Source: a virus
Length of the DNA stretch: 64,000 bases
Virus record (IMG/VR): IMGVR_UViG_3300009034_000001
Span: 1 to 64,000 of that record
Direction: 5' to 3' (one strand)
Shown: piece by piece, positions 41,745-52,957 of the stretch
How positions within the stretch are numbered: the stretch's first letter is position 1
Layout: each line of letters begins with the position of its first letter
The notes under the pieces: model-generated
Databases searched by the model: none
What the model was told of the DNA's origin: nothing
The model's input: only the letters and a program-made list of their open reading frames with translations
Position numbers and translations under genes: made by a program

Positions 41745-44700
41745 TTAAATCATTCTACGTACTAACTTCTTTCCAATATTGTTAGCAACGATTTCACCGT
41801 ATTTTTTTGATCCGAAATATTGATCAAGTTGTTGTTCATCAAAAATATTCACAACAGTTAACTTTGGAGGTTCAACTCCTCTACCTGGCACTATCCCACC
41901 TTCTTGGAAGAATTGGCCTAATGGCGATAGCTGCGTTGATACAGATTGTAGATTTGATACATAACCACCAAGTTGTCTTGAGATGAATTCAGATACAGGC
42001 ATTAAGCCCTGATTAAGGGAACTTAGAAACGCTAAGCCATACTTTCTTACCGCCCGAGACTGTAATACATACTCGCCTTCATGTAATATTGCAGGTACTT
42101 CGCCACCTCTTTGGAAACCTTTTGCACCTGTGAGGCCTTTAAATAATCCCCCAAAGACACCGCCAACCAAATTCTGAAGTAACTGAAGTATGGATCCTAA
42201 GCCTCCGCCCGCGGTTCCACCAAGTGTACCTAAAATGTTGCCAAAGAAACCTTTTTGTGCACCTTTTGGTTCGCCAATAATGCCCTTAAACAATGAACCA
42301 AACAACGTTTCCATGCCACGTAATGGGAACCCAAGCCCCTTACCAAACAAGCCTGCTCCACCACCTAACAAAGTTGGCAAGAGCGACACAAGTCCACCAA
42401 GTTGAAACCTTGATACATATCCACCTTTAGCGCCTCCAAATAAGCCTTTTAACCCACCAGCTATTTGTTCAAATCCACCTTTCATGAAGCTACCTAACTG
42501 CTGTATTCCGCCAAATGCTTTTGTTATAAGTCCATATAAGAAATTAAATGGTCCCATCATTGACGACCATTGTTTCTGTCTCAACCCAAGTGTTGCAGCC
42601 TCTTTAAATTCTTCGGGTGCCTTCTGCCATACCGGAGGAGCTTGTTCACCTCCAGAGGTAGTTCCCGTTCCAAACATGCCGCCAACACCTTTAAGTAATC
42701 CCATTGCTGGTCCAACAAATTTCAAAGCGGTCAATACGCCGCCTATCCAGAAACTAGGAGAGCCAATTGTCTTGAAAAGATGTACTAACTGTGACGAGCC
42801 TGTTTTTGCAATTAAGCCGCCGTGTTCAAGTCCACCAATTGCTTGTAAGAAGGCTGTAGGCGCACCACCAAGGCCGCCACCACCTTTTCCGCCGCCTAAC
42901 ATTGCACCGAGTCCCCAACCTTTTAAACCGCCTCCAAGTTTTCCAGCCCAATCTAATAACTTACCCCACCACATAGGTGTAAAACCTTTCTTTGCAAACA
43001 ACACTCCACCAAGTTTTTCTAATAAACCTTCTGGACCAAGTGCACCTCCCGCGAAGAGTGGCAAAAGTGCGCCCAATACGGGTCCACCAAGTTGATACTT
43101 TCTGACTGAACCGCCTACTTGATGCCGTAATGGAACCAAGCCCGAATTTAGCGAATCAAAGAACGACTTACCATACTTACTAACGGCCTGTTTCTTCATA
43201 ACAAATTCGCCTGCATGTACAATTGCTGGTACCGCACCACCTTTTTGGAAACCAAATAAACCTTTGACCGCACCAAACAATCCCCCTAATTTGCCTAATC
43301 CGCCTAATATTTTACCGCCCAACCATTGTGAAGACAGCCAAGTTTCCCGACCTAACCATTTGAACCCGCCGGTAATTTCACCGGGTATTCTTTGTAAAAA
43401 ACCTAACGTTCTTGACCAAAGTCCAGGTCCCGCAGCCCCAACGGGTGCCACACCAGGAGCCACACCAGGAGCCACACCAGGAACACCGGTCACAACACCA
43501 GAGACGCCGGGACGGTACCCAGCAGCAGCAAGCTTCTTTGCAATATTAAGTTTAATATAATCAAGAGTTAGGCCTTGAACTTGCTTCCTTTCCTCTTTCA
43601 CCGTTGCAACAGTATCTTTCATGAAGTCAAGACCCAGGGCTTCTAATGCCTTTGTAACAGCCCAACGCGTTGCAATGGTAACCAATGCCTTTACAAATTC
43701 AAATTTGAAGCGTTTTATAATATCACGCCATCTTAATTCAAAGTTTTCACCATACACGATCCACCTAGCAACCGCATCTCCTACTTCTGAGGTTAGATCA
43801 TTCCACACTTGTGATATCAGTTCACCAGCTTTAACTGCAAAGTCTTGAACTGCTGCCCAAGCGCCACGGGAATAATCAACCATCCAATCAGATGACGTCT
43901 TGACTTTCGCCATTAAGATATCCCAGAAACTGTGCTGTGACTTCATGCCCGCTTCAGCTTCTTTAACAATGTTTTCCCACATTTCCTTCTGGACTGAAAC
44001 AACCGCTTCAGAGTAAGCACGATGATATTGTTGCGACGTTCTACTAAGTTTCAGTTCGTGAACCAAATAGTCATCAATTTGTTTCATCCGAGCTTGGAAA
44101 TACTCTTTGTTATACTTTCCACTTAACCTTAATCTTTCAACTTCCTCTTCAAGCATCTTCTTCCAAGATTCTCGTAATCTTACATAAACGGCTTCGCCTA
44201 ATTTCACAAGTCCTTCTACTTCTTCCGCGTGTTCTCTTACTTTTTCATTAGTACTTGCAAGATCTGCTTGATGTGCCCTCAGCCAAACGCCCGCTGCTTC
44301 TAACGAGCCCATTAAATCGTCCTCAGAACCTACAAATCCAATATTTGCTTCCGTCAATGCAGCAACAACTTTCCTTGCGCGTTCTTGAGCGTTTCCATAA
44401 ACTAAAGTTGCTTCGCCAACGTCCACCAACCTTTTATCAACTTCCAGCAATGTTTCCTCGAGCGCAAACTGTTTCTCCAACCACTCTAATGTAGACAGAC
44501 CCGTGTCTTTTAAAGTCTTGTTATAGTTCCGTGTTTCTGTTGTCACGATTACAAGTCGGTTGATTAATTCTGTAAGTACCTTTTGCTGGGCTTCTGTAAG
44601 TTTGTTCCAATCGATATGAGTTTGAATTAACTCTTTTATTCTTTCCGGCGTGGTTTTAATGGAAATGTTTAAATCATCAATTATCGTCCTCAACGTTGAG

Positions 44701-47700
44701 TCTGACTTCCTCATTTTGTCTATCCATTCAGTTGCATGCTCCTGCGCTGCAACTAAATCCTTAAGTTTATCATCTTCGTCCTTAAGGGCTTTAACCACTT
44801 CAATTTTCCAGTCAACCAATTCCATATGTTTCGAAATCAATTCATCTAAACCTTTTATATTCTTATCCTGAGAAGCAGTGTAGTTGTCCAAACTGCTACT
44901 TAATAAATCGATCCAGAATAGCAGTTTTGCAGCAACTTCACCGCCTGTTTCCCTTGCCACATTGAGTTTGTCTTGTAACTGAACTTGAGTCATACTTTTT
45001 ACTTCAAGTTCTGGATATAACTGATGAACTACAAATCGAAGTACTCTCAAATACCCTTCCAATGCAGACTTTTGTCTCTTCTTAGCTTCAACATCCTTAT
45101 CTCCAGCTGCCAAAAGTTTGTCAAAGAACGACGCTTCCTTATCTTGAATGGCTATCACGGCCTTTGACAGGTTAATTCTTTTGGTATTTGCATCGGTAAA
45201 GGCTTTCACATCTGCGTCGGTTGCTGCAACTTTTTCATCAATCAACTCGGTATACAAATCGGTGGATCTCTGTTCCCAATAGTCACGAGCCTTAATCATT
45301 TCTTCTAACGTGGCCGTTCCCATTGCATATCTTAATTCAAACCTTTCCATATCAGACAACAGACCTTCAAATGTGTCCCCCGTTCTCTTTGCCATCTTTT
45401 CGGCTGCGTCGCCAACATCTCCCGTCCCAGTTTTCACTATATTTTTAATCCGTGACCAAGAGTCCTTATGAATTGCATGAATGTCAACCAATGTATCAGC
45501 AACGCTATCGGCAAATTCCTCATATCGTTTTGCGGTCTCCTTATGAGCTTCGCCAATTATTGGAAGCAAACCAATCAACTCGTGATACATTTGCATAAGT
45601 TTTGCCATTCCCCACGAAACCAAAGCAATAGCGCCAGCAAACGCGGTCAAAGCAATGATTGTTGCTTCAATAGCAACGTTTAAAACCCCGACTAATACAA
45701 GACCCGCAGTTCCAAAGGCCCGTGAAAGTAAACTTACAAGGTTTGCGTGTTCTTTTAGCCAATTGTTGACAACAGCCAAAACACGTGAAAATACATTAAA
45801 ACGTTGTTCCAACTTGGATACTGCTTCTACAAGGAGGTAAATTAAAATTAGAGGCCAAACTCGTTGTAGGACGAGAAATGCAGTACGTAACGCTCTGGTA
45901 GCACCAGCTAAGGTAAACAACGACCCGGCAGCCATAACAGCAGACACAGCCATTCGACCTAGCCACATTCCAAAGCCCTTAAGCGCGGCGATTGTAGTTG
46001 CCAATATTGCACGCAATATAACCAATGACTCAACAACTAAAACTTTCAAAAACCGTCCAAGTATAACAACAGCTCCGCCAGTGCCTCGAGCCGTCTTTCC
46101 AAGTTTGAACAACAAGAGGTACAAAGGAAACGATACTTTCGACACCCACTGCATAGTCCGAGCCAAATACTTGTATACACCAGATAAGTGAGCGGTAGAG
46201 GCCAATGAAAGTACCATGGCCTTGTTTAATGCAGTAAGTAATATTGTAAGACCCTGAATTGAAATCCGGACTGAAATTACCGTTGCGGCCAATACCAATA
46301 ACTTCCCTATCCATGTAAGCGTCAAACCAGTTATAAATACCATAACGCCAGCTAATGCTGTCACCTGTTGACCTAAGAATAATGTCGCCTGTGCTTTTGT
46401 ATATAACAGTTTAATAACAGGTTCTAAACCCCGCTTTATATACTCACCCAGTTGTTTTTGGTAAACGAATGTTAAAACTTGAATTCGCCGTAGCGTACCA
46501 CCATAGGAATCCATAAATTTATTTACTTGTTCAACACGAGGTCCCAACACTTCAAATGTAGAACTAAGTCTTGCCATTGTTAACGCTTGTCGTTGCTGAA
46601 TAGGGTTCATTTCGTCGGTTACTTTTAACAGGCCTTTTGATTCAAGAGCGTCCTTTCTTACTTCAATACCATAACGTCTTGCTGCACGAACGTTACCGGA
46701 AATTGCGGCCTCTAACGATTGTGCTACCTCAGTCACAGAACGACCTTCTGCAGCAAACGATAAAATTCCTTCCACAAATTCCATAACTTGTTCTTCAGCA
46801 ACGCCCATAACGCCCAAGAAGTCAACAATAGGACTAATAGCATGAATTACTGTAGGTGGTAAAATTCCAAATTGAACAGATAACTCATCCACAGCCTTCG
46901 TCCACTGTGCTGTAGTCCAAATAGCTTTTGCGTTAACTGTTCTATAAACCTCAATTGCTGCAACTAATAAATATGCGGATCTTTCCATTTCGACAGAAGC
47001 ATGAACCCACCTGCCCGCAGCCTGGACCAAACCTATTCCAATGGCTTCAATTAATCTACCAACACCAGCAAATAACCGTGCCCAAACAAGTTCAACAAGG
47101 ATTGCAGACGTTGTAACTCTTCTCAGTGCTGGAACCATTCCTCTGTTAAGCGCTTGTGATGCTTGTCCCGTAGCTGCAGTAAATCCTTTCAAACCCGTTG
47201 ACACTTTTGCCGTTGCAGAACCAGCACCTGCCATTGCTCTTCCAACTCTACCGCTAACTCCAGCAAGGTCTTGCATTACGGCAGAACCTGTGATTGTAGC
47301 CCGGCGTAAACCTTTAATGCCAACGCCAAATCTATCTAGTATGCCACCGGCATGGTAGAGGCCACGTGAAAGCATTGAAAAGACGCCAACACCGCCCGAT
47401 ACCGTTCCAAAGAACCTGGCAAAGCCACGTGAAATACTAGCGGTACTGGTCAGTACCAAACCAAAGACTTTTGCAAGTTTTAAACCTGTTTCGCCAAGTG
47501 TGCCCGTTCCCAACATTAAATCGCGAACCATTAGTTTTGCTGTTGCCATGACGGGGGCCAGCTTTGCAACAACAGCTGTATATGTCGCAGTATTCCTAAT
47601 AGCAGATGCAATTCCGACGCCCACACCGGCAAAGGCAATTCCTACGGCTTTAACAATACCTATGGTGTTCATCCAAACAGCATTAAGAGCACTTGAAGAC

Positions 47701-48257
47701 CTCGCGGTAGCTCTGAAAGCTCTACCAACCGAAGCGCCGGCGATTCCAATTTCCATAAAAGCAGGTATCAATCTCCGATATAAAATTTGTGATTGCACTA
47801 CTATCGTACGACCAAGGACGGTAAATGCCTCGCGGAGTTCCGCTGTTTGTTTATATCCTGATCTTACATGACGACCCATGACAACAATAGCTTTAACAAA
47901 ATCGGTGCCAACGACTTTACTGACATCCCTAACAGCTACTCCCATCAGTCCAACTTGAGTCACGAATGTTTTGGTAAGTTTACCTACTTCGGGTGCTAGT
48001 CTTTTTATGGTGGAATGTATATCACGCCAATGTCTAACAACAAGGGCCAAGCCTGCGGCCGCTGTGGTAACCTTTACAATGGTGCCAATATAGCTTTTTG
48101 TAGCTTGTACGGCGCGATCAGTTTCCAATTGTGCTTGTTTAAACGTAGCCTGGATCTTCGGCTGCAACTGGGCACATTGAGTCTCAACTTTCTGCAAACC
48201 TTGACGGATCTGACTAAGATCCCATTCTACAGAAATACTATAAGTTTCTAGTGGAAT
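41745..48257 (-). CDS. Tape measure protein
   Basis: 2170 residues from an ATT at 48257-48255, with GGAGG 9 bases upstream; a TTG at 48197 is the first ordinary start but has no ribosome site. Sets tail length: at about 0.15 nm per residue, roughly 320 nm. Long helical N-terminal region, several hydrophobic stretches, and a Gly-rich C-terminal third with two copies of a VPAI-x-H-x-GE module. GTAGLVLVGVLNVAIEATIIAL is among the membrane-like segments. Follows DUF3326 with a single-base gap. Confidence 0.92.
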   Translation of the reverse strand: MPLETYSISVEWDLSQIRQGLQKVETQCAQLQPKIQATFKQAQLETDRAVQATKSYIGTIVKVTTAAAGLALVVRHWRDIHSTIKRLAPEVGKLTKTFVTQVGLMGVAVRDVSKVVGTDFVKAIVVMGRHVRSGYKQTAELREAFTVLGRTIVVQSQILYRRLIPAFMEIGIAGASVGRAFRATARSSSALNAVWMNTIGIVKAVGIAFAGVGVGIASAIRNTATYTAVVAKLAPVMATAKLMVRDLMLGTGTLGETGLKLAKVFGLVLTSTASISRGFARFFGTVSGGVGVFSMLSRGLYHAGGILDRFGVGIKGLRRATITGSAVMQDLAGVSGRVGRAMAGAGSATAKVSTGLKGFTAATGQASQALNRGMVPALRRVTTSAILVELVWARLFAGVGRLIEAIGIGLVQAAGRWVHASVEMERSAYLLVAAIEVYRTVNAKAIWTTAQWTKAVDELSVQFGILPPTVIHAISPIVDFLGVMGVAEEQVMEFVEGILSFAAEGRSVTEVAQSLEAAISGNVRAARRYGIEVRKDALESKGLLKVTDEMNPIQQRQALTMARLSSTFEVLGPRVEQVNKFMDSYGGTLRRIQVLTFVYQKQLGEYIKRGLEPVIKLLYTKAQATLFLGQQVTALAGVMVFITGLTLTWIGKLLVLAATVISVRISIQGLTILLTALNKAMVLSLASTAHLSGVYKYLARTMQWVSKVSFPLYLLLFKLGKTARGTGGAVVILGRFLKVLVVESLVILRAILATTIAALKGFGMWLGRMAVSAVMAAGSLFTLAGATRALRTAFLVLQRVWPLILIYLLVEAVSKLEQRFNVFSRVLAVVNNWLKEHANLVSLLSRAFGTAGLVLVGVLNVAIEATIIALTAFAGAIALVSWGMAKLMQMYHELIGLLPIIGEAHKETAKRYEEFADSVADTLVDIHAIHKDSWSRIKNIVKTGTGDVGDAAEKMAKRTGDTFEGLLSDMERFELRYAMGTATLEEMIKARDYWEQRSTDLYTELIDEKVAATDADVKAFTDANTKRINLSKAVIAIQDKEASFFDKLLAAGDKDVEAKKRQKSALEGYLRVLRFVVHQLYPELEVKSMTQVQLQDKLNVARETGGEVAAKLLFWIDLLSSSLDNYTASQDKNIKGLDELISKHMELVDWKIEVVKALKDEDDKLKDLVAAQEHATEWIDKMRKSDSTLRTIIDDLNISIKTTPERIKELIQTHIDWNKLTEAQQKVLTELINRLVIVTTETRNYNKTLKDTGLSTLEWLEKQFALEETLLEVDKRLVDVGEATLVYGNAQERARKVVAALTEANIGFVGSEDDLMGSLEAAGVWLRAHQADLASTNEKVREHAEEVEGLVKLGEAVYVRLRESWKKMLEEEVERLRLSGKYNKEYFQARMKQIDDYLVHELKLSRTSQQYHRAYSEAVVSVQKEMWENIVKEAEAGMKSQHSFWDILMAKVKTSSDWMVDYSRGAWAAVQDFAVKAGELISQVWNDLTSEVGDAVARWIVYGENFELRWRDIIKRFKFEFVKALVTIATRWAVTKALEALGLDFMKDTVATVKEERKQVQGLTLDYIKLNIAKKLAAAGYRPGVSGVVTGVPGVAPGVAPGVAPVGAAGPGLWSRTLGFLQRIPGEITGGFKWLGRETWLSSQWLGGKILGGLGKLGGLFGAVKGLFGFQKGGAVPAIVHAGEFVMKKQAVSKYGKSFFDSLNSGLVPLRHQVGGSVRKYQLGGPVLGALLPLFAGGALGPEGLLEKLGGVLFAKKGFTPMWWGKLLDWAGKLGGGLKGWGLGAMLGGGKGGGGLGGAPTAFLQAIGGLEHGGLIAKTGSSQLVHLFKTIGSPSFWIGGVLTALKFVGPAMGLLKGVGGMFGTGTTSGGEQAPPVWQKAPEEFKEAATLGLRQKQWSSMMGPFNFLYGLITKAFGGIQQLGSFMKGGFEQIAGGLKGLFGGAKGGYVSRFQLGGLVSLLPTLLGGGAGLFGKGLGFPLRGMETLFGSLFKGIIGEPKGAQKGFFGNILGTLGGTAGGGLGSILQLLQNLVGGVFGGLFKGLTGAKGFQRGGEVPAILHEGEYVLQSRAVRKYGLAFLSSLNQGLMPVSEFISRQLGGYVSNLQSVSTQLSPLGQFFQEGGIVPGRGVEPPKLTVVNIFDEQQLDQYFGSKKYGEIVANNIGKKLVRRMI

Positions 48258-48258
48258 A

Positions 48259-49545
48259 TTACTTCACCTCCGTGGTTACACGAGTATAACAAATTGGTCT
48301 ACGGACCGATTGTGTCGTCACCCCGGCTTTAAGTGCTTGTATTACTCCCGCAGCTTCTATGTAAGTATTCACTACAAAGAGTTTACCATCTTTAAATGGC
48401 AGATCTTCTAAAGTATTCTTCATTAAATTCTTATTCTCTTTAACAGCAATCACCGGAATACCTTGTTCAAGACAAGCCAATGTTGGTAGTCCAACGCATC
48501 CATAAGGAATAACTAAACATGAAATATCCTCTACACTGAGACCAAATTTGTGATTCACTATCCTTGGACTCCGGTATAAACCTCTTAGTATACAATGTAA
48601 ATAAGTAATTGATGACGATTCCGGAGCCTTACGTGGCTCAACAATGCCCACTTCTAATTCCATAACTTCCCTTGATGCCATCATCGGAGCGTGAGCACAC
48701 GGAATTTGATAAACTTCAGCTATACTATGCGTCAGCATCGCTTCAATTCCGCCCCATGGGTTAACCATATCATTTTCGTCATTAAAGTATTCCTTGTGAA
48801 AATGTTCAGGAACTTGAATGAAAGTTGACAAGCCAACAGCATCATATTGAGCTTTATATTTATCTATTATTTTAAATAGTCTTTCCAAATGATTCACGGT
48901 ACCAATAGCCCTCCCTGATTTAGCATATAACGATGCCATTTCCATAATATTTTCCATGTGCACAACATCACAATCTAAACCTAAGGTCACACGCGCTGAA
49001 GAAACGGCATTAACTATCTCATTGTTAAAAAAGTTGTCAGGGTGTTTATCAGCTAGCATAAGAACCCTGTTTGATCTCACTTTCTGTAAACCTAACTGTC
49101 CCATTAACAGCCTAGTAATTATACTCCCTTCAACATATAATCCATTTTCCGGTAACGTGTTAATATCAGAAGCATTTACTACGTTAGGATGTGTAATTAG
49201 TGCATCACACGAACTTGCCATCAACCTCGCAACCGCGTTTCCATCTCCACAATGTCCACCAAGTTCTGCCCCAATACCGGTTGGTATCAAAAGGACGGTT
49301 GTAAACTTGTCCGTATGCTCATATTCACGTTGACGGAAGTTGAAAATTGAACCCAAAGCAAGATCGTAGCCACTACCAGCAGGATCAAGAAAGTCTACTT
49401 CACAGTTATGCCCTGCCGGGAAAGTTTCAGTAATAACAAAACGGATAGGTTGTGCACGAATGGATTCAAGACGCAATGCGTTAACGGACCCATTAAGTTC
49501 CAACTTACCCGTTGGTAAAAAGATTTCCTTCGTATATACCCTCAT
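48259..49545 (-). CDS. DUF3326 protein
   Basis: 428 residues. LIPTGIGAELGGHCGD, ITHPNVVNASDINTLPENG, LYVEGSIITRLLMGQLGL and MVNPWGGIEAML match the DUF3326 family of bacteria and plants, whose function is unknown. Enzyme-like, with conserved Asp/His/Asn loops. ATG overlaps the TGA of the SpeD-like gene (ATGA), so the pair is translated together. Neither belongs to a tail by known biology, yet both lie between chaperone and tape measure. Confidence 0.85.
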   Translation of the reverse strand: MRVYTKEIFLPTGKLELNGSVNALRLESIRAQPIRFVITETFPAGHNCEVDFLDPAGSGYDLALGSIFNFRQREYEHTDKFTTVLLIPTGIGAELGGHCGDGNAVARLMASSCDALITHPNVVNASDINTLPENGLYVEGSIITRLLMGQLGLQKVRSNRVLMLADKHPDNFFNNEIVNAVSSARVTLGLDCDVVHMENIMEMASLYAKSGRAIGTVNHLERLFKIIDKYKAQYDAVGLSTFIQVPEHFHKEYFNDENDMVNPWGGIEAMLTHSIAEVYQIPCAHAPMMASREVMELEVGIVEPRKAPESSSITYLHCILRGLYRSPRIVNHKFGLSVEDISCLVIPYGCVGLPTLACLEQGIPVIAVKENKNLMKNTLEDLPFKDGKLFVVNTYIEAAGVIQALKAGVTTQSVRRPICYTRVTTEVK

Positions 49546-49913
49546 AGTCTCTCAATTACATGCTTAGAAATCACTTTGCCTCCAAACCATCCAACAGAAA
49601 GTTCTGTGGCAACATCTGCATCAAACACGCCGCATGCAAATATATTCAAATAAACTCTCTTTAAAGTTTCCAGAGTATGAATTGTAACGTTACTAGTTGT
49701 AATAAACTGTACAGCAGTCACACCTCTTAAATGTGGAGGAGAAGTCTTGTACTCCTCCGGTTGACCATGATAATCCCACCAAACCAATTTTTCCCTTACC
49801 ATATTTATTTGGTCACAAAGTGCTTTGAAGTAAGCTTTAATGCACTTCCTGTTAAAGGTTGCTGGATTACAACCGTGTAAATCAAGAATTAACTCCATGC
49901 CGTAAGTTTTCAT
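49542..49913 (-). CDS. speD-like: S-adenosylmethionine decarboxylase-like (SpeD class 1B) protein
   Basis: 123 residues from ATG 49913; two upstream in-frame ATGs exist, one with GGAG only 2 bases away. Class 1B enzymes self-cleave to form a pyruvoyl group and decarboxylate S-adenosylmethionine for spermidine synthesis. YGMELILDLHGC, TAVQFITTSNVTIHT (Ser74 at the pyruvoyl position, His79) and IFACGVFDADVA (Cys94) fit. The residue before Ser74 is Thr where Glu is usual, so processing or substrate may differ. SpeD is a known auxiliary gene in some marine phages. Confidence 0.82.
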   Translation of the reverse strand: MKTYGMELILDLHGCNPATFNRKCIKAYFKALCDQINMVREKLVWWDYHGQPEEYKTSPPHLRGVTAVQFITTSNVTIHTLETLKRVYLNIFACGVFDADVATELSVGWFGGKVISKHVIERL

Positions 49914-49990: not shown

Positions 49991-50028
49991 CAAATAGAGA
50001 GAGGTAATTAAAAACCTCTCTCTATTTG
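49991..50028. repeat. 15-bp perfect hairpin spanning the chaperone stop codon
   Basis: CAAATAGAGAGAGGT (49991-50005) and its exact inverse (50014-50028) with an 8-base loop. On the minus strand the first arm contains the TAG stop of the frameshifted chaperone. The T-run lies on the plus-strand side (50029-50036), so as written it would terminate plus-strand transcripts; on the minus strand it may be a processing or pausing site between chaperone and SpeD. Confidence 0.75.
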
Positions 50029-50752
50029 TCTTTTTTCTTTGATACGCCAACGGTCTCCATCAAGCCTTTCTTACTAAGTGAATCGAGTGTTCGTTCAACA
50101 TCGTATTGCTTACGTGGTTGAGTACTTGGTACACCTTTCAACTTTTGACCATGTAAGCTTGCTTCAAATTCGCGGTCTAGCCGTAACCTTCTTGTAGCAG
50201 CTTCCATCAGAAACTTTAATTGATCAAGTGGTAAATCAAGTATCTGATCAACCGACCAACCGTAATTATTGGCAAAGAAGTCAACTACTTCTGAGAGGCT
50301 GGTTTCACCGCGATATTGAACTTGGCCTTTATCAACTCGCCATACGTCTTGAAGAAAGGGACTAGAATTTCAATTAAATCCTCCAGTACCACGTTTTCTT
50401 CAACCCACTTTTCATCCTTATCCAAAATTAAACCACCAATTTCCACAATTGCATCTGGAACCTCAGTTAGAATATCCGGTAGAACGGTAACAACATCTTT
50501 CCAGGTGAAAGCATCAATATTGATGTCTTTAACCTCTTTTAAATCTTTTAACGTCTGTCCAACTTTCTTGATAATCTGAATTTGCTTCTTCAGTCCAGGC
50601 TTCTTAATAGCAATAGTGTCACCGTTGTCAAGTGTAAAGTCGTTCCCGAAGAAAGCCTGTTGTTCAGCCGACTCCTTAGGAGTTGGTTTAGCAGCTACCT
50701 CAGTTTTTACCTCTGGCTTTGGAGTTACTTCCTCCTTTTTCTTTTCGGTCAT
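50022..50752 (-). CDS. Tail assembly chaperone, -1 frameshift product (G-GT type)
   Basis: About 243 residues: codons 1-133 of the shorter chaperone, then a -1 shift at CCCTTTC and 110 further codons to the TAG at 50022. The downstream part reads GETSLSEVVDFFANNYGW then SVDQILDLPLDQLKFLMEAATRR, typical of the T domain of such chaperones, which binds the tape measure. A separate 61-codon ORF from ATG 50207 is part of this frame. Confidence 0.8.
50285..50752 (-). CDS. Tail assembly chaperone, unshifted product (G type)
   Basis: 155 residues. Lys/Glu/Pro-rich first 40, then a compact helical domain (DNGDTIAIKKPGLKKQIQII...DIDAFTWKDVVTVLPDIL). Coats the tape measure and delivers it to tail tube subunits. 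AGGAGGTTTTATC-ATG. Position after tail tube and before tape measure is canonical. Confidence 0.8.
   Translation of the reverse strand: MTEKKKEEVTPKPEVKTEVAAKPTPKESAEQQAFFGNDFTLDNGDTIAIKKPGLKKQIQIIKKVGQTLKDLKEVKDINIDAFTWKDVVTVLPDILTEVPDAIVEIGGLILDKDEKWVEENVVLEDLIEILVPFFKTYGELIKAKFNIAVKPASQK
50354..50360 (-). promoter_or_regulatory. -1 ribosomal frameshift slippery heptamer
   Basis: Minus strand reads C CCT TTC in the chaperone frame (codons 131-133), an exact X XXY YYZ. Shifting here joins the long -1 reading frame that carries the T domain. No pseudoknot was evaluated. Confidence 0.75.
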
Positions 50753-51919: not shown

Positions 51920-52957
51920 TTAGTCTGGCAAAACAAGTGATTTGAATATGCGGTCATATACACCTACAACAGCGATCCCGTTGTCAACGCCAACTATTAC
52001 GCGTATCTCTTTAACTGTTGGAATAGTCCAGTCAAAATTTGTCACATCAGACCATGTTAGTCCAAAGTCGGTTGATCGTTTTAGCGTGCTGCCATAACCA
52101 CCAGCAAGCACAACGCCAAAATCAAGATAAGAAAGAGCGTAAAATCCACCTTCACCTACCGTAACACCAAGATCGGTCCATGTTGTTCCATAGTCGATTG
52201 ATCTCAATAATTTGATCGGATTTATTGTGGCAGCGATAACAATTCCACCTTCCACATACGTAAGCGCGTATATACGTTGTACTCCAGCTTGTTGACCAAG
52301 ATCGGTCCAAGTCGCACCGTAGTCGGTTGATCTCAGAATCTTGCCATTGAAACCCGTTCCGGCCAAAGTGATGCCATTCCCGAGATAACAAAATGAAAAG
52401 ATCTGAGTCTCGCCTGCTTGTTGACCAAGATCGGTCCAGGTCTTGCCATAGTCGGTTGACCTCAAGATTCTACCGCTCATTGTTTCACCGGTTCCAGCTA
52501 AGGCGATTCCTTTCTCAAGATAAGCAAGTGACGTAATGGGTTCCGCGACAGGTGAGCCAAGATCGGTCCAAGTCGCACCGTAGTCGGTTGACCTTAGAAT
52601 TTTGCCTGGGCCTTTACATCCCGCCAGCACAATACCATGCTCACAATAGGTCATTGAATCTGCTCCCACTGGTCCAGCTTGTTGACCAAGATTTGTCCAC
52701 GTTTGGCCATAGTCGGTTGACCTAAAGATCAGTCCCCCACCTATACCGGCAAGTACGACGCCTTTAGTACAATACGCAAGCGATATTATAAGATTGGTTG
52801 AAGATAAAACCCCACAATCCTTATATGCCTTACCTGCTAGAGCCCTATGGATCCAAGCTTCTCTAATCTCGACAAACAAGTTGCCAAGCTTGTAACCCCA
52901 AGGTGACTGCCAATCCATATTTAAACATTCTATAATACGTCTTGGAAGTTTTCTCAT
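51920..52957 (-). CDS. Six-repeat BNR/Ycf48-like beta-propeller protein
   Basis: 345 residues. Six copies of a blade signature, RST-D-YG-x-TW-T-DLG, at roughly 45-50 residue spacing, as in sialidase-type or Ycf48 propellers. N-terminal 50 residues are separate. Could be a tail decoration or a carbohydrate-binding part. Catalytic residues of sialidase were not seen. Confidence 0.8.
   Translation of the reverse strand: MRKLPRRIIECLNMDWQSPWGYKLGNLFVEIREAWIHRALAGKAYKDCGVLSSTNLIISLAYCTKGVVLAGIGGGLIFRSTDYGQTWTNLGQQAGPVGADSMTYCEHGIVLAGCKGPGKILRSTDYGATWTDLGSPVAEPITSLAYLEKGIALAGTGETMSGRILRSTDYGKTWTDLGQQAGETQIFSFCYLGNGITLAGTGFNGKILRSTDYGATWTDLGQQAGVQRIYALTYVEGGIVIAATINPIKLLRSIDYGTTWTDLGVTVGEGGFYALSYLDFGVVLAGGYGSTLKRSTDFGLTWSDVTNFDWTIPTVKEIRVIVGVDNGIAVVGVYDRIFKSLVLPD

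Follow-up and report, generated by a model that had tools for sequence, protein, structure and literature searches.

A gene for a small SpeD-like pyruvoyl decarboxylase and a gene for a DUF3326 protein, found side by side in the tail region of one viral genome, are coupled in many other phages; the link is genuine and extends well beyond one phage. The best explanation that we can offer, and one that we hold tentatively, is that the two genes form a portable module with which tailed phages make an amine while the virion genes are expressed, and in which DUF3326 would be an enzyme of the same pathway as the decarboxylase. This reading builds on the conserved pairing, on intact catalytic residues, on the S-adenosylmethionine decarboxylase (AdoMetDC) fold of the protein model, on the exchange of the decarboxylase partner and on the structural-operon context.

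Organization of the locus

The window, i.e. the whole stretch of 64,000 nucleotides that was analysed, is part of a viral record of 241,415 bases (IMGVR_UViG_3300009034_000001), so that the phage genome measures 241 kb or more. Another assembly of this virus, IMGVR_UViG_3300009034_000002, matches it with 99.99% identity across 13.3 kb. The stop codon of the SpeD-like gene (TGA, 49544-49542) and the start codon of the DUF3326 gene (ATG, 49545-49543) share an ATGA overlap (Table 1). The tape measure gene lies directly downstream, and two ORFs just upstream (50285-50752 and 50022-50207) are presumed from their size, order and overlapping frames to be the tail chaperone pair, a PHROG search having matched neither; genes for a head-tail adaptor, a major head protein and a head protease are located farther upstream. 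Pfam scores and coordinates agree with the sequence-only reading, which had described the two genes as overlapping by ATGA in the tail operon and had placed them between tail chaperone and tape measure; the operon is a late structural one. This slot is peculiar to the window phage, the pair elsewhere adjoining portal, terminase, capsid or other genes. Between the head-tail genes and the tail chaperone, the window also encodes a BNR/Asp-box repeat protein (51920-52957; sialidase or YCF48-like propeller). The tape measure protein is very long and would imply a tail of about 300 nm, in a long-tailed phage with a genome of more than 240 kb.

Table 1 Features of the SpeD-DUF3326 locus in the window.
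Feature	Position	Strand	Evidence
SpeD-like pyruvoyl decarboxylase, 123 aa	49542..49913	-	PF02675 E=7e-13; AlphaFold2 model pLDDT 96; TM 0.75-0.79 vs T. maritima AdoMetDC
SpeD-like residues Ser74 (codon 49694-49692), His79, Cys94	within 49542..49913	-	
DUF3326 protein, 428 aa	48259..49545	-	PF11805 E=2e-84; AlphaFold2 model pLDDT 92, pTM 0.92
N-terminal extension of DUF3326, residues 1-80, three strands	49306..49545	-	only in the window's clade
ATGA overlap, SpeD stop/DUF3326 start	49542..49545	-	same -4 overlap in 18/47 directly adjacent pairs
Tape measure protein, 2150 aa (context)	41745..48197	-	PHROG tape measure matches
Presumed tail assembly chaperone ORF pair (context)	50022..50752	-	size, order, overlapping frames

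Distribution of the pair among phages

Searching with the window's SpeD-like protein retrieved an unrelated phage contig (L010) in which the pair overlaps by GTGA and lies between the portal and a Mu F-like gene. Searches with small alignments returned 73 DUF3326 loci and 17 SpeD loci, and a third DUF3326 search brought in more diverged members, again mostly accompanied by SpeD. Among the 69 distinct DUF3326 proteins surveyed from IMG/VR contigs, 54 have a SpeD-like gene, which is directly upstream in 47, separated by inserted genes in six and in reverse order in one; the remaining 15 lack such a gene on their own strand. In the SpeD-seeded search, DUF3326 was found within 3 kb of 40 of 54 distinct SpeD genes; the 14 genes with no DUF3326 nearby include some on short contigs. 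Clustering of 1,267 neighbouring ORFs from 75 loci, called with a simple greedy gene caller, recovered DUF3326 in 71 loci and SpeD in 56, the next family being present in eight. The proposal that the two genes belong together is thereby borne out by their repeated adjacency, and a pair so conserved among other phages cannot be put down to chance.

The genes that adjoin the pair encode portals of several types, subunits of terminase, capsid proteins, Mu F and DNA-replication and nucleotide functions, and the phages carrying it are diverse, given how varied these neighbours are. The pair lies repeatedly, though not always, among packaging, head and tail genes, and the recurrence of such structural neighbours upholds the late expression that had been suggested from the window alone. 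It is kept despite re-ordering in L055, and a GNAT acetyltransferase gene separates SpeD from DUF3326 in L087. The two proteins co-diverge weakly (Mantel r=0.22, p=0.009). DUF3326 was detected in none of 50,697 GenBank phage records and in none of 72,556 plasmids, and the pair was missed in reference genomes because it is found only in uncultured phages. A single genome scan for bacterial DUF3326 yielded nothing but a C-terminal piece with about 55% identity to the window protein, at 223-792 of a 3.5-kb Nitrospinota MAG contig (L003, JADFGI010000350.1); 76 other Nitrospinota genomes contained no DUF3326 and, as the sole case among 77, this contig is perhaps viral or foreign.

DUF3326 and its exchangeable partners

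We know of no function for DUF3326 in any organism, cyanobacteria included, and a literature search found no description of its function or of the SpeD-DUF3326 pair. The window protein scores 283.8 bits against PF11805 (cut-off 25), covering profile positions 1-336 of 337, and all 65 aligned members match this family. Its confident AlphaFold2 model had no fold relatives in PDB and BFVD at E<=0.001, and a profile search of PDB sequences gave no match; LacI/binding-protein and lumazine-synthase candidates were set aside as local Rossmann-like matches with low TM. Twenty-nine columns are invariant across the 65 sequences, and Asn, Glu, His and Tyr are frequent among them, as would be expected for an enzyme.

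The tree of these 65 proteins separates 49 short forms, 47 of them with SpeD, from a clade of 16 (support 100/100) that includes the window protein and is distinguished by an 80-residue N-terminal extension. The idea that this extension is a degenerate SpeD half was rejected (profile comparison probability 0.7%). The partners within the extended clade are SpeD in five cases, a phosphatidylserine-decarboxylase-like (PSD-like) protein in nine, an ornithine-cyclodeaminase (OCD)/mu-crystallin protein in one and none in one. The nine PSD-like partners (L029-L040) are above the PF02666 cut-off of 22 bits (40 to 64 bits in the four scanned), and eight have a WGSQT motif at the expected cleavage site. 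They fall below every NCBIfam PSD equivalog cut-off (L038, best 56.8 vs 307 bits; L029, 80 vs 183), and a true lipid substrate seems doubtful. Both SpeD-like and PSD-like proteins belong to pyruvoyl-dependent decarboxylase families and are not detectably homologous (profile comparison probability 0.9%). This exchange of SpeD for a non-homologous pyruvoyl decarboxylase is the strongest evidence for a role of DUF3326 in an amino-acid-decarboxylase pathway: as an enzyme of other descent but like chemistry can stand in for SpeD, DUF3326 probably acts in the same amino-acid-to-amine pathway, and its function is narrowed to one reaction class.

Some other neighbours hint at amine metabolism. The PSD-like gene of L029 overlaps DUF3326 by ATGA and is preceded by a protein with a weak arginine-dihydrolase match (E=0.0022); L039, another of the nine phages with a PSD-like partner instead of SpeD, carries beside the pair a GNAT gene and an agmatinase-like gene scoring just below the TIGR01230 cut-off (163 vs 174 bits). 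In L026, the OCD/mu-crystallin gene is located three bases upstream of DUF3326, and an OCD neighbour is also present in two truncated relatives. A glutamate-dehydrogenase-type gene (L128:4179-5429) precedes an N-extended DUF3326 on a contig that also has a clamp-loader-like ATPase gene and is possibly from an archaeal virus. No decarboxylase was found beside DUF3326 in L041, L059 and L093. These three loci, the L128 neighbour, the 14 SpeD genes with no DUF3326 nearby, the weak co-divergence and the failure to recognise any DUF3326 relative of known function or fold count against the pathway-enzyme reading. Proteins of the same PSD-like family occur in L100, L101 and L105, whose records contain no DUF3326.

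The main rival to a pathway enzyme is that DUF3326 helps pyruvoyl decarboxylases to mature or regulates them, in the way of PanZ for PanD or prozyme for trypanosome AdoMetDC. We consider this unlikely. A helper would explain why pyruvoyl partners come from two unrelated families, and translational coupling through ATGA also speaks for it, but a single helper for two different folds would be unusual, the 14 SpeD genes with no DUF3326 nearby would have to do without it, and DUF3326 also adjoins OCD- and glutamate-dehydrogenase-type enzymes, which have no pyruvoyl group. The active-site-like appearance of its conserved Asn, Glu, His and Asp likewise argues against a helper.

Two further possibilities are improbable. 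Two useful genes might share one mobile cassette with no functional link, a view favoured by the great diversity of the phages that carry them, by the weak co-divergence and by the homing endonucleases (HNH or GIY-YIG) that in L013, L048, L053 and L131 have entered precisely between the two genes. Insertion of homing endonucleases at conserved phage genes is a frequent pattern, and the pair outlasts both such insertion and the re-ordering in L055; if the two genes had no function in common, it would be difficult to account for a different pyruvoyl decarboxylase taking the place of SpeD at the same site. We give as little credence to the amine not being a free polyamine, DUF3326 attaching it instead to a DNA base, lipid, surface sugar or protein. 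PSD-type enzymes normally act on a carrier-linked amino acid, and these PSD-type partners, together with a DUF3326 protein of no known fold, would suit such a reaction; the AdoMetDC-type and agmatinase-type neighbours nevertheless indicate free amino acids or amines, and no carrier gene is common to the loci.

In a fuller version of the pathway-enzyme reading, DUF3326 may be an enzyme that has so far escaped recognition, lacks known relatives in fold and feeds or completes a pyruvoyl-decarboxylase pathway. Many tailed-phage lineages would carry the module so that an amine is made while virions assemble, and would exchange the decarboxylase for a non-homologous one but keep DUF3326. We regard this fuller version as a serious possibility, a shade less secure than the module itself.

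The SpeD-like protein and its likely substrate

With 49.3 bits against PF02675 (cut-off 25), the SpeD-like protein belongs to the class 1b AdoMetDC/SpeD superfamily, and its model has the AdoMetDC fold (Foldseek E=1e-8 to 1vr7/1tlu and 2iii). Matches to PDB sequences hinting at an immunoglobulin relative were judged to be chance matches. Among 57 aligned family members, the pyruvoyl Ser74 and His79 are both kept in 57 and Cys94 in 56, the three residues of the window protein aligning with S63, H68 and C83 of T. maritima AdoMetDC. The residue before the pyruvoyl Ser is Thr, where T. maritima AdoMetDC has Glu62. The sequence-only reading had singled out this replacement, which is genuine; it is not a defect of the window gene, however, since Thr occupies the position in 49 of the 57 members. 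In L084 (4122-5975) and L129 (2306-6016), the SpeD domain is fused to the C-terminal end of long ORFs (617 and 1,236 aa), and DUF3326 still comes after it.

A Pro residue is invariant in bona fide AdoMetDC (PMC10407285). In the inferred column of this residue, which follows the catalytic His (WPE in T. maritima), the window protein has Glu and 50 of the 57 members have Asp or Glu, Pro being retained in four and missing from 53. The AdoMetDC equivalog TIGR03330 was not reached either (28.2 vs 75.65 bits). The SpeD-derived ornithine decarboxylases (SpeDC) are diagnosed by Gln, Thr, Phe and Tyr (PMC10407285 Fig. 8); compared by residue type, the family has Gln69 in 56 of 57 members, Thr73 in 49 and Tyr or Phe at 88 in 51, with Thr (41/57) rather than the SpeDC Phe at position 80, after the catalytic His. 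Phage SpeD homologues of 117-122 aa decarboxylate ornithine and some arginine (PMC9992855), and phage homologues have been proven elsewhere to be ornithine (ODC) or arginine (ADC) decarboxylases (PMC9992855, PMC10407285). As the family lacks the Pro of true AdoMetDC, ornithine or arginine appears a likelier substrate than SAM, which, from the missing Pro, the SpeDC-type residues and the phage ODC and ADC proteins of the same length, would be the least likely of the three.

The proposal of polyamine or SAM metabolism made from the window alone therefore survives in part: the amine link is sustained by two unrelated pyruvoyl families and by the agmatinase and GNAT neighbours, and the SAM link is not, given the missing Pro, the TIGR03330 score and a search of 21 large records in which no spermidine synthase (SpeE, PF01564) was found. 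That the protein nonetheless acts on SAM, the pair making or removing decarboxylated SAM for spermidine synthesis or for SAM depletion against host restriction, would fit PF02675 membership, the AdoMetDC fold and the activity of other phage SpeD proteins on SAM (PMC9992855) but, on those same three counts against SAM, is the least probable reading of all.

Proposed pathway

In the scheme that follows we infer the substrate, the reaction of DUF3326 and the step at which it acts, and the purpose that the amine serves. The SpeD-like protein would self-cleave at Ser74 to generate its pyruvoyl cofactor and would then decarboxylate not SAM but a basic amino acid, with L-ornithine (or L-arginine) as the likeliest candidate. 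DUF3326 may catalyse another step of this short pathway, and a step that provides the amino acid is more likely than one that consumes the amine; supply fits slightly better because its partners, the decarboxylases and the OCD-type and glutamate-dehydrogenase-type (L128) enzymes, consume amino acids. The product, putrescine or a relative, may serve late infection, e.g. as a counter-ion for packaged DNA. In some phages packaged DNA is neutralised by polyamines, which would explain production late in infection. As the 21-25 large records searched contained neither SpeE nor a deoxyhypusine-synthase-type SpeY gene (PF01916), a diamine, or a product processed by the host, is the more likely outcome, and any higher polyamine would need host enzymes. 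If true, the scheme extends the known viral polyamine genes, SpeD-derived ODC and ADC, to a module of more than one enzyme whose expression accompanies that of packaging and tail genes, and with two small genes the function of DUF3326 is now directly testable.

Comparison with known systems

The closest known systems are SpeDC and SpeDA, the AdoMetDC-derived pyruvoyl ODC and ADC (PMC9992855, PMC10407285), with which the window family shares the class 1b AdoMetDC fold, the Ser/His/Cys residues, carriage by phages and a size of about 120 aa. Gln69, Thr73 and Tyr/Phe88 match three of the four SpeDC diagnostic residue types, whereas the residue after the catalytic His, Phe in the phiN3 protein, is mostly Thr. 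Unlike SpeDC and SpeDA, the family is coupled to DUF3326, unmentioned in PMC9992855 and PMC10407285, and it lacks a SpeE or SpeY-type gene in the phage records searched (21-25). The speD-speD-speE-speB cluster of Microcystis phage MaAM05 is likewise a phage polyamine cluster with SpeD homologues, but has no DUF3326 and encodes its own SpeE and agmatinase. The phosphatidylserine decarboxylase family PF02666 provides the DUF3326 partner in nine related phages, although these partners score below the equivalog cut-offs of true PSD. Finally, cyanobacterial PF11805 proteins, encoded in a fed3-DUF-DUF3326 gene cluster (PMC4284462), belong to the same Pfam family as the phage form, which scores far above its cut-off; in contrast to the cyanobacterial genes, whose neighbours differ, the phage forms are paired with decarboxylases, and the clade of the window adds its own N-terminal extension of 80 residues.
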